Below are positions 10,670-26,010 of a stretch of DNA of 64,000 bases, one piece after another (within the stretch, counting starts at the first letter, position 1; the number at the start of each line of letters is the position of its first letter). The notes under the pieces were generated by a model. The model searched no databases, was not told the origin of the DNA, and saw only the letters and a list, made by a program, of their open reading frames with translations. Source of the DNA: Xanthomonas sp. F10 (GTDB lineage: Bacteria > Pseudomonadota > Gammaproteobacteria > Xanthomonadales > Xanthomonadaceae); contig NZ_JACHNP010000001.1 in NCBI RefSeq assembly GCF_014206815.1, forward strand, positions 2,508,456 through 2,572,455. Reading direction: 5' to 3'. The position numbers and the translations under genes are program-made.

Positions 10670-10698
10670 TTGTGAACAGCGGCCATGACGGCTAGAAT
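10670..10698 (+). promoter_or_regulatory. Sigma-70 promoter of tRNA-Ser(GGA)
   Basis: TTGTGA at 10670-10675 and TAGAAT at 10693-10698 are separated by exactly 17 bp and lie 39 bp before the tRNA 5' end. This is a near-consensus housekeeping promoter in an otherwise GC-rich spacer. Confidence 0.75.
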
Positions 10699-10737
10699 TC
10701 CCGCCCTTGCCCGGACCGCATGGCCTGCGCAAGACCC

Positions 10738-10830
10738 GGAGAGGTGTCCGAGTGGTTGAAGGAGCACGCCTGGAAAGTGTGTAAGCGTCTAAACCGCGCT
10801 TCGGGGGTTCGAATCCCCCTCTCTCCGCCA
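10738..10830 (+). tRNA. tRNA-Ser(GGA)
   Basis: The 93-nt class II tRNA has a long variable arm, acceptor stem GGAGAGG paired with CCTCTCC (one G-T style offset at the base), anticodon loop CTGGAAA with GGA, T-loop GGTTCGAATCC and an encoded CCA. It closely resembles E. coli serW/serX. Its last 20 nt plus the next 4 bp are repeated 159 bp downstream; see the separate repeat entry. Confidence 0.95.
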
Positions 10831-10993
10831 GATTGAAAGTGTTGAGATGGCCCAGTCGCGTGAGTTTCGCCGGCGCCTGGGAGGGGGTGAGAACCCCCGG
10901 GTTCGACAGGTGGCGTAGCTACCTGCACGGCGAAGCCGCCCGAAGGGCGAGGCATCGAAGATGCCGAGTGAATCCCCCTCTCTCCGCCAGATT
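10811..10993 (+). repeat. tRNA-Ser(GGA)-linked unit bounded by copies of the tRNA 3' end
   Basis: A 24-bp sequence (10811-10834: tRNA T-arm 3' half, acceptor 3' strand, CCA and GATT) is repeated perfectly at 10970-10993. Between the copies are four successive hairpins. The first is GGGGGT-GAGA-ACCCCC near 10883-10898. The linker GGGTTCGAC follows at 10899-10907. Next come AGGTGGC-GTA-GCTACCT, then CGCCC-GAA-GGGCG, then GGCATC-GAA-GATGCC. The segment 10925-10952 matches 26 of 28 bases of the unit behind tRNA-Ser(CGA). No protein frame is convincing. The layout resembles the E. coli tyrT rtT repeats. The function is unknown. Confidence 0.8.
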
Positions 10994-11081: not shown

Positions 11082-11192
11082 GTGGCCCCGTCGGCCCCTC
11101 GCGACGCTAGGTCGAAAACCCCGCCAGGGCCGGAAGGCAGCAACGGTATCGATCGACGCGGGCGCCGAGGTCAGCCGGCGGGGTTACCACCC
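11082..11192 (+). ncRNA. ffs: Signal recognition particle 4.5S RNA
   Basis: The apical domain reads GCCAGGGCCGGAAGGCAGCAACGG (11123-11146), split here as GCCAGGGCCGGAAGG and CAGCAACGG. It contains the GGAA tetraloop and the asymmetric AGCA loop that bind Ffh. The ends pair: GTGG, CCCCG and TCGGC at 11082-11096 match GCCGG, CGGGG and CCAC at 11174-11190, giving one long rod of about 110 nt as in small bacterial SRP RNA. The ends are estimated from the pairing. The 3' part (11146-11192) is repeated downstream. A clear promoter was not found. Confidence 0.85.
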
Positions 11193-17840: not shown

Positions 17841-17869
17841 AAAAAAGCAAAAGGCCCCTGACGGGGCCT
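17841..17869 (-). terminator. Terminator of the tRNA-Ser(CGA) transcript
   Basis: Read on the minus strand, AGGCCCCG-TCA-GGGGCCT is followed by TTTTGCTTTTTT. It lies downstream of the tRNA and beyond its 3'-end repeat, so the repeat unit should be part of the primary tRNA transcript. Confidence 0.85.
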
Positions 17870-17875
17870 CATGCG

Positions 17876-18062
17876 GAACTGGCGGGAAGGGGGGATGCAC
17901 TCGGTGCATGCTGCACCTCGCCCTGCGGGCGGCTGCGCCGTGCGCATCGGCTGTCGCCGATGGGTCGAACCCGCGGGGCTTCTCCCCACCCACACCTGCG
18001 CTGATCACGCTCTGCGACCGCTGAAGGGCCTGTGCGCGATAGAACTGGCGGGAAGGGGGGGA
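17876..18062 (-). repeat. tRNA-Ser(CGA)-linked unit bounded by copies of the tRNA 3' end
   Basis: Read on the minus strand, the tRNA 3' end plus AGTTC (18042-18062) is repeated at 17876-17895. The interior carries the same order of hairpins as the unit after tRNA-Ser(GGA): GGGG-AGAAG-CCCC, the linker GGGTTCGAC, CATCGGC-GACA-GCCGATG, CGCCC-GCA-GGGCG and GGTGCA-GCA-TGCACC, ending CCGAGTG before the tRNA-like end. Positions 17916-17943 match 26 of 28 bases of the other unit. The terminator at 17841-17869 follows, so the unit is probably transcribed. Confidence 0.8.
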
Positions 18063-18136
18063 TTCGAACCCCCGAGGCGCTATAAACGCCTGCCTGATTT
18101 CGAGTCAGGTACATTCAACCACTCTGCCACCTTCCC
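18046..18136 (-). tRNA. tRNA-Ser(CGA)
   Basis: The 91-nt class II tRNA has acceptor stem GGGAAGG with CCTTCCC, anticodon stem-loop CCTGA-CTCGAAA-TCAGG with anticodon CGA, a long variable arm, T-loop GGTTCGAATCC and an encoded CCA. It is followed by a repeat unit bearing a copy of its 3' end and then a terminator. Confidence 0.95.
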
Positions 18137-18165
18137 GGGTGGTCCCCGGCGGACCGGGGGCGTGC

Positions 18166-18194
18166 ATCATACGGTTCCCGCCGCGCGCGGACAA
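18166..18194 (-). promoter_or_regulatory. Sigma-70 promoter of tRNA-Ser(CGA)
   Basis: On the minus strand, TTGTCC (18189-18194) and TATGAT (18166-18171) are 17 bp apart. The tRNA begins 29 bp after the -10 box. A GC-rich discriminator follows the -10 box, as expected for stringently controlled stable RNA promoters. Confidence 0.7.
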
Positions 18195-25739: not shown

Positions 25740-25816
25740 TGGCGGAGTGGACGGGACTCGAACCCGCGACCTCCGGCGTGACAGGCCAGCATTCTAACCG
25801 ACTGAACTACCACTCC
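25740..25816 (-). tRNA. tRNA-Asp(GTC), copy 2
   Basis: The 77-nt tRNA has acceptor GGAGTGG with CCACTCC, anticodon loop CTGTCAC (GTC) and an encoded CCA. It is identical to the copy at 25934-26010 over the whole gene. Each copy is followed by its own near-identical hairpin, which shows a tandem duplication with a period of 194 bp. Confidence 0.95.
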
Positions 25817-25895
25817 GCGTTTGAACGGAGGCGGGCGCGAGGCCCGCTTTCCCGAAGTGGCCGGGCCAACGCTGGTGCGTGGCGGCGACTGCGAG

Positions 25896-25924
25896 AAACG
25901 AAACCCCCGATCGCTCGGGGGCTT
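25896..25924 (-). terminator. Terminator between the two tRNA-Asp genes
   Basis: CCCCCGAGCGATCGGGGG is followed on the minus strand by TTTCGTTTCTC. The T-run is weaker than that after copy 2, so some read-through to the second tRNA-Asp is likely. Confidence 0.75.
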
Positions 25925-25933
25925 CGGTACAAC

Positions 25934-26010
25934 TGGCGGAGTGGACGGGACTCGAACCCGCGACCTCCGGCGTGACAGGCCAGCATTCTAACCGACTGAA
26001 CTACCACTCC
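25934..26010 (-). tRNA. tRNA-Asp(GTC), copy 1
   Basis: The 77-nt tRNA is identical to the copy at 25740-25816: anticodon GTC, encoded CCA. It lies 27 bp after tRNA-Val, and a terminator-like hairpin follows at once. Confidence 0.95.

Follow-up and report, generated by a model that had tools for sequence, protein, structure and literature searches.

Units behind two tRNA-Ser genes of Xanthomonas sp. F10 are related to RtT and probably represent tRNA-anchored copies of a mobile hairpin-rich DNA element

Two tRNA-Ser genes are followed by units with a common core

The window, a stretch of 64,000 nucleotides from the genome of Xanthomonas sp. F10, contains two intact tRNA-Ser genes with the anticodons GGA and CGA. 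Each gene is followed by a hairpin-rich unit, and both units are bracketed by direct repeats (24 bases for unit 1 and 19 bases for unit 2). In its usual order, a unit comprises a 5' arm (part of the tRNA acceptor/T arm, copied in inverted orientation), GGTTCGA (the sense half of the T arm), a core, ATCC and the remaining tRNA 3' end with CCA. The core opens with C, contains four hairpins (H1 to H4) and closes with GAGT or a similar ending. Two covariance models were used. R1 was built from seven tRNA-linked units, taken from the window and from relatives in its genus and order, with no enterobacterial rows, and R2 describes the core only. The rows were aligned by hand and padded with N because the MAFFT alignments A1-A3 placed the arms and H1 wrongly. 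The features at the two loci are as follows.

10670..10698, + strand: promoter-like site TTGTGA-17-TAGAAT upstream of tRNA-Ser(GGA) (consensus scan only)
10724..10892, + strand: Rfam sX4 match, covering the tRNA, the spacer and the initial bases of unit 1 (77.9 bits, cut-off 70)
10738..10830, + strand: intact tRNA-Ser, anticodon GGA (ARAGORN; Rfam tRNA 50.8 bits)
10811..10834, + strand: first copy of the 24-base direct repeat (tRNA 3' end plus GATT), identical to 10970-10993
10835..10876, + strand: spacer of unit 1, closely resembling by comparison the unit spacer that follows tRNA-Ser(CGA) in genome G008
10867..10989, + strand: full-length RtT match below the cut-off (38.6 bits, E 3.2e-6, cut-off 45)
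10877..10898, + strand: 5' arm of unit 1, a G-rich hairpin and inverted partial copy of the tRNA acceptor/T arm, in which TGAGAACC replaces ATTCGAACC
10899..10906, + strand: GGGTTCGA, the sense T-arm half, ending at the insertion point (sequence and comparison with other loci)
10907..10969, + strand: core of unit 1, consisting of C, H1 (10908-10924), H2 (10928-10938), H3 (10939-10947), H4 (10951-10965) and GAGT (R1 71.1 bits; R2 39.3 bits)
Elements of unit 1, + strand: GGGTTCGAC at 10899, AGGTGGC/GCTACCT at 10908, 28-base block at 10925, GGCATC/GATGCC at 10951, CCGAGTG at 10964
10970..10993, + strand: second copy of the 24-base direct repeat (tRNA 3' end including CCA), absent as a second copy in 15 of 20 genomes of the genus
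11088..11184, + strand: small SRP RNA gene, the next RNA gene downstream of unit 1 (Rfam 64.6 bits)
18166..18194, - strand: promoter-like site TTGTCC-17-TATGAT upstream of tRNA-Ser(CGA) (consensus scan only)
18046..18136, - strand: intact tRNA-Ser, anticodon CGA (ARAGORN; Rfam 59.3 bits)
17981..18150, - strand: Rfam sX4 match, covering the tRNA, the spacer and the initial bases of unit 2 (92 bits)
18042..18060, - strand: first copy of the 19-base direct repeat (sequence identity)
17973..17995, - strand: 5' arm of unit 2, a GGGG-AGAAG-CCCC hairpin
17899..17964, - strand: core of unit 2, consisting of C, H1 (17962-17945), the H2/H3 block, H4 (17917-17903) and GAGT (R1 78.2 bits; R2 48.9 bits)
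Elements of unit 2, - strand: GGGTTCGAC from 17972, CATCGGC/GCCGATG from 17962, GGTGCA/TGCACC from 17917, CCGAGTG from 17904
17880..18006, - strand: weak full-length RtT match (25.2 bits, E 0.0066 in 301 bases)
17876..17894, - strand: second copy of the 19-base direct repeat (sequence identity)
17851..17870, - strand: intrinsic-terminator-like hairpin downstream of unit 2 (consensus scan)

A preliminary description of this DNA had listed the elements of both units, and every one of them was matched letter for letter in the window sequence. The 28-base blocks share 26 bases, as described. The paired changes of the stems were also present as claimed, with AGGTGGC/GCTACCT against CATCGGC/GCCGATG in the 7-bp stem, where one pair of unit 1 is G-U, and GGCATC/GATGCC against GGTGCA/TGCACC in the 6-bp stem. 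Unit 1 was longer than first delimited: it runs from the G-rich arm (at about 10877) to the second copy of the tRNA 3' end at 10989, with the preceding spacer included. As single strands, the two units had only modestly low folding energies (z -2.07 and -1.38).

At E <= 0.001, R2 matched exactly two places in the window, which are units 1 and 2, and this speaks against a chance resemblance. Two tandem tRNA-Asp(GTC) genes of equal length and score lie beside tRNA-Val at 25740-26010, and no unit was found behind them by R1 or R2. The consensus scan found no terminator-like hairpin on the coding strand between tRNA and unit at either locus. At the CGA locus such a hairpin comes after unit 2, so the tRNA and the unit can share one transcript.

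The units are homologous to RtT

The units had been thought to fit no named family. This did not hold, since the unit is homologous to RtT (RF00391) and its 5' part falls in sX4 (RF02223); an unnamed RNA family is ruled out by these matches. Both units matched the RtT model over its full length (1-130), at scores of 38.6 and 25.2 bits that miss the gathering score of 45 bits. By Rfam's own cut-off, the window units fall outside RtT as presently drawn. The sX4 threshold of 70 bits was passed at both loci (77.9 and 92 bits), with the core lying outside that model.

The homology with RtT was approached from the other side with R1. This model recovered two complete rtT copies of E. coli K-12, at 55.1 bits (E 1.5e-13) and 42.1 bits (E 9.7e-10). 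Both fall within rttR as annotated, one downstream of tyrV and one in the interval from tyrT to tyrV. A third copy, which is cut off, scored only 8.4 bits. Since R1 contains no enterobacterial rows and finds E. coli rtT, and the Rfam RtT model spans the window units, we consider the two homologous. R1 also finds cores without tRNA context, and the link to RtT is thus not built into the model. At the Rfam cut-off, RtT was found at 0 of 20 core loci sampled at class level, and a megablast search of E. coli genomes with a 49-base piece of the RtT consensus gave no match.

The likeness to RtT (rttR of E. coli tyrT) is extensive. Both lie behind a tRNA and close with a copy of the tRNA 3' end including CCA; both have a G-rich 5' arm, followed by TGAGAA, GGTTCGA, hairpins, GAGT and AATCC; and both occur as tandem copies in some genomes. 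They differ in their hosts, which are tRNA-Tyr for RtT and tRNA-Ser GGA and CGA (ARAGORN) in the window, and relatives of the window units extend to Gln, Glu and Arg tRNAs and to sites without any tRNA. The sX4 model shares with the units the stretch of tRNA-Ser plus spacer, above its cut-off at both loci, but its match stops 10 bases into 10883..10970 and does not contain the core.

RtT was described in E. coli decades ago, and we know of no accepted function for it. No paper on RtT or on the dispersed element described below was found in the open-licence literature, among the matches listed by titles and abstract openings. The window units are thus ordinary in part, as RtT relatives behind tRNA-Ser. 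The wider identity of their core as a dispersed element is new as far as our literature searches reach. The expectation of an undescribed system failed as regards an unnamed family and held in part, in another form, in that the core is a dispersed element with evidence of insertion.

The core is widespread and occurs in many contexts

In the family of the window, R1 matched 53 of 119 genomes, including cores with flanks other than tRNA. With R2 at E <= 1e-4, matches were obtained in 154 of 369 genomes (118 of 272 genera) of the Gammaproteobacteria, and in 66 of 299 genomes (33 of 154 genera) of the phylum sample. Only 12 (class) and 16 (phylum) candidates per genome were scored, so copy numbers and the label "no match" are lower bounds. 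A blastn search of plasmids and phages with one core gave no match at E 1e-3 and 1e-2. The genome of the window itself has only two confident copies, units 1 and 2, and nothing in it points to current activity. Weak R2 hits of 19-25 bits in the same genome (L092, L093, L098, L099, L100) seemingly belong to another dispersed repeat (CTTTTGA..., GCCGTCCGCGGCAGGGGCAGGATGCCCC...).

The hits were reduced from 219 to 205 distinct ones, then to 199 with usable core and flanks, and finally to 119 after clustering at 70%. These 119 distinct contexts comprise 57 T-loops, 3 D-loops and 2 anticodon loops of tRNA-Ser, and 57 others; the loci were best hits plus 79 hand-chosen regions (80 fetched, L177 unused), so this split is not an unbiased one, and the 57 others include L092, L093, L099 and L100 from the weak hits above. 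The core starts with CAA in 62 of the 119, other C-forms coming next, and its last four bases are GAGT in 39, GAAT in 21, GAGC in 12, and others.

The core was also found within genes and within other repeats. Dispersed hairpins of the form TTACTTTTCTTTG...CAAAGAAAAGTAA hold it in their loop (L050-L062, L068, L069, L077, L087), and palindromes of the type CCCTCTCCC...GGGTGAGGG also carry it (L162, L163, L172). At L140 in genome G321, six copies in both orientations lie inside 1.6 kb, in a region that presumably is a decaying group II intron. The labels IS91-type, RHS and group II intron for genes at core loci are ones that we assume from translations. One family outside the class (f210, phylum sample) was very rich in core copies, and 5 of the 6 loci fetched from it (L217, L218, L220, L222, L224) had the full core after GGTTCGA, which is the T-loop form.

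Occupied and empty sites differ by about 72 bp after GA

Comparison of occupied with empty sites showed that about 72 bp are inserted after GA. At L159, the H1 stem of one core copy is split by a second copy of 72 nt. The empty counterpart, L156, has the same gene start and the same outer copy, with 46 identical bases around the joint and 115 of 142 identical over a longer ungapped stretch.

In genome G273, one gene exists in two occupied and two unoccupied copies. After removal of the 72 nt from the occupied copy L157, the gene was identical to the unoccupied copies at 171 of 180 and 169 of 180 positions, with an open frame; unoccupied homologues of it were also found in other genomes. The joint reads GTGGA/element/ATCC, against GTGGAGTCC at the empty site. 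Since the empty site has GTCC and the occupied one ATCC, the right end of the element is uncertain by one base. In genome G088, a palindromic host repeat, TGCGGGAGAAGGTGCCCGAAGGGCGGATGAGGG, is unoccupied at 42 places (with at most 3 mismatches) and occupied at three (L065-L067), where the element follows CGGGAGA. This repeat serves as a landing site for the element.

Insertion into hairpin loops only was rejected as a general rule. It fits the tRNA loops and a few palindromes (L050, L077, L172, L124) but not most other contexts, and a flank pairing score of at least 8 was reached in 4 of 57 non-tRNA contexts and in 15 of 1117 mismatched pairs.

The arms follow the host tRNA

To relate the arms to the host tRNA, the analysis started from 63 rows that had a T-loop flank and lay at most 160 nt from a tRNA; 52 were left after clustering. 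Their hosts were Ser in 30 (CGA 14, GGA 11, TGA 5), Tyr in 6, Arg in 6, Glu in 5 and Gln in 5. The 3' arm fitted its own tRNA better than any tRNA for another amino acid in 48 of the 52 rows, and the antisense 5' arm was best with its own tRNA in 32. Hence the arms follow the tRNA, the 5' arm less strictly, and the core is common to all. When the core was removed and the flanks were joined, ARAGORN found a complete tRNA in just one of 101 T-loop rows (tRNA-Ser, L137), which means that nearly all T-loop cores reside in partial tRNA copies. At L035, L045, L070 and similar loci, the inverted repeat of the terminator hairpin reaches back into the 3' end of the tRNA. In the three loci named, the arm prolongs, across the terminator, the reverse complement of that 3' end and of the bases downstream of it. 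Terminator palindromes extended in this way may have given rise to the inverted (antisense) arm of the units.

At tRNA-Ser(GGA), the 139-bp unit 1 was present in 5 of the 20 genus genomes and absent from 15. The empty genomes have a single tRNA 3' end, and six of them then continue with GATTCGAAT, as does the sequence downstream of the window's unit. G008 is empty at tRNA-Ser(GGA), yet has a unit with a much alike spacer behind tRNA-Ser(CGA). A tree of 1400 upstream bases required four changes for the presence of the unit. Many forks of this tree were weak and 185 of 500 label shuffles were equally good, so it does not separate gain from loss. The distribution in the genus could therefore reflect loss between direct repeats instead of gain.

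These data raise the question of whether the whole 139-bp unit moves rather than the core. It might be a tiny element that carries repeats of the tRNA 3' end, comparable to an integrase-type tRNA-site element that lacks an integrase of its own. Alternatively, it might be a tandem duplication whose retention or loss depends on recombination between the 20-24-base repeats. The perfect 24-base direct repeats and the clean presence or absence of 139 bp are in line with this, as are the near-alike spacers at two different tRNA-Ser loci and the tandem arrays behind Tyr and Gln tRNAs. Whole-unit movement leaves unexplained the cores in D-loops, in anticodon loops, in genes and in repeats free of tRNA ends, and we regard it as rather unlikely, with about one chance in a few.

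The pattern of stem change points to DNA palindromes

The preliminary description had proposed a folded core conserved through compensating base changes. This was confirmed in more members. In an alignment of 28 relatives (28 of the 30 rows listed, fitted by hand to the structure), 98.0% of stem cells were paired, compared with 29-37% when the partners were slid by 1-3 columns. Changes on both sides of the stem were seen in 19 of 25 pairs, and the covariation score was reached by none of 500 shuffles.

Paired change had been taken as evidence of selection on RNA structure, and this step was not borne out. When the RNA strand is what selection acts on, G·U pairs are accommodated and A·C pairs are not. 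In the core stems, G-U was no commoner than A-C, neither in copies flanked by a T-loop (G-U 22 and A-C 20 of 2118 stem cells), nor in the other copies (27 and 34 of 2007), nor in 61 distinct copies lying at most 160 nt from a tRNA (12 and 13 of 1396). The acceptor and T stems of 81 tRNAs at the same loci, used as control, gave G-U 28 and A-C 0 of 972, although ARAGORN may itself select against A-C. The lack of a G·U excess over A·C argues for DNA palindromes, which are symmetric on both strands, rather than for selection on RNA. The pattern of stem change thus points to DNA palindromes, and transcription of the tRNA-linked copies is compatible with it.

The same counts bear on the reading that the unit is a functional RNA, co-transcribed with the tRNA and excised as a small RNA like RtT or sX4, with its fold under selection. 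Transcription with the tRNA is suggested by the promoter-like sites before both tRNAs, by the terminator-like hairpin after unit 2 and by the absence of one on the coding strand between tRNAs and units. The sX4 match over tRNA and spacer is above its cut-off, rttR is annotated as ncRNA in E. coli K-12, and the covariation is strong. PMC6337395 lists sX4 among the sRNAs expressed in Xanthomonas, which we counted in favour of a functional RNA. Besides the equal frequencies of G-U and A-C, this reading is countered by the 15 of 20 genus genomes that lack the unit and by the occurrence of the same core inside genes. Several relatives have a T-run hairpin between tRNA and unit, where transcription would require read-through. 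We consider a functional RNA improbable for these reasons.

Comparison with known palindromic repeats and CsrA sites

Rickettsia palindromic elements (RPE) are palindromic DNA within coding genes. The core resembles them by description, having 72 nt, or 24 codons, in frame in a gene, and differs in its hosts. In L168, one core copy is inserted into a palindrome that we take to be of the CGTCATTCC type.

Among published dispersed elements, those closest to the core are the GTAG and CGTC repeats (PMC3733652, Di Nocera and others); this source also mentions RPE. There, REP repeats of the GTAG type are taken to be mobilised by Y1-type transposases (RAYTs). GTAG and CGTC repeats are likewise short palindromic repeats with many copies, both inter- and intragenic; the core differs in having four hairpins in about 72 bp and in inserting after GA, often in tRNA loops among the copies seen. 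A GTAG tag was absent from the 12 four-base core endings listed for the 119 contexts.

The core could also be a REP dimer of the CGTC super-family, i.e. two palindromic units with small hairpins between them. PMC3733652 describes CGTC repeats with 8-9 bp stems and 4-5 base loops, which form dimers, some with spacer hairpins, and also occur within genes; those of Halothiobacillus lie inside larger palindromes. The stem and loop of H1 about fit this description, and in a number of copies H1 is followed by GACG, which reads CGTC on the opposite strand. The tag, however, would sit inside the element, whereas the published CGTC dimers are mostly tagged outside (PMC3733652), the tag bases vary (GACG, CACG, GAAC, GACA), and the copy in L168 is inserted into the putative CGTCATTCC-type palindrome. 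The comparison was made with the published description in words, and on this basis a CGTC dimer seems doubtful. Since the dimers reported in that text include ones with spacer hairpins or inside palindromes, part of the element may already have been counted among them.

A sponge for CsrA/RsmA, in which hairpins with GGA loops soak up the regulator, is highly improbable in general and was ruled out for the window units: GGA occurs in the loops of H1 (49) and H4 (47) of 67 clustered hits, but in only 5 of H2 and 12 of H3, it is missing from H1 and H4 in both window units and both complete E. coli copies though present in many relatives, and the stem changes follow a DNA-level pattern. The H4 loop is often ACAAGGATGT or ACATGGATGT, which presumably resemble CsrA sites.

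Discussion

Our results suggest that each unit is probably a tRNA-anchored copy of a non-coding, hairpin-rich mobile DNA element of about 72 bp. This explanation draws on four things that the analysis showed: the homology with RtT, the copies elsewhere, the existence of both occupied and empty sites, and stem changes of the kind expected for DNA palindromes. The element would begin at the C after GA, include the four hairpins and end in GAGTA or a closely similar sequence. In the window units, it would occupy the T-loop (GGTTCGA / ATCC) of the second copy of the tRNA 3' end, beside the inverted partial copy, and E. coli RtT would be the same arrangement behind tRNA-Tyr. Because the flanks of the element repeat the tRNA 3' end, the tRNA gene itself is not disrupted. 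Lying within the tRNA transcript, the units probably yield a trailer RNA like RtT during tRNA processing.

As to its movement, the element is most likely non-autonomous and moved in trans, perhaps as single-stranded DNA, inserting after GA. The sequence TTCGAATC, common in T-loops, would be one such GA target. Copies that land in a working tRNA would be lost, and those in a duplicated 3' end would survive. The trans-acting enzyme may be a single-strand transposase of the Y1/HUH type, with the units themselves mostly passengers.

No transposase linked to the element was found, and the evidence for Y1 is co-occurrence with PF01797 (Y1_Tnp). Y1_Tnp genes were present in 23 of 25 genomes with at least 8 core copies, compared with 8 of the 17 genomes in which no core was matched, the latter being the first among those listed, minus G166 (0.4 Mb), G043 and G035, and also smaller than the dense genomes. 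The p value of 0.0005 for this contrast refers to 23 of 24, with G436 left out; with G436 included (23 of 25) the contrast is lower. The two dense genomes without Y1_Tnp, G436 and G446, are both fragmented drafts, and they count against Y1 being required.

We further propose that one very widespread and hitherto unrecognised mobile element of Pseudomonadota (about 72 bp, four hairpins, inserted after GA) has left RtT and the trailing parts of sX4 behind as stranded copies. It would enter genes, tRNA loops and other palindromes as well as copies of itself, be mobilised in trans, and seed units whose arms are rewritten for each new tRNA. We regard the arguments for and against this wider proposal as evenly balanced.

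This reading would join two Rfam families, RtT and sX4, with a large dispersed repeat, which had been annotated apart from one another. It would also carry a warning that compensating changes in bacterial hairpins need not prove an RNA function, as here they come without the G·U excess typical of RNA. If the RtT core is a mobile palindrome, the question would shift from the job of the RtT RNA to the enzyme that mobilises the core and to its retention behind tRNA genes.
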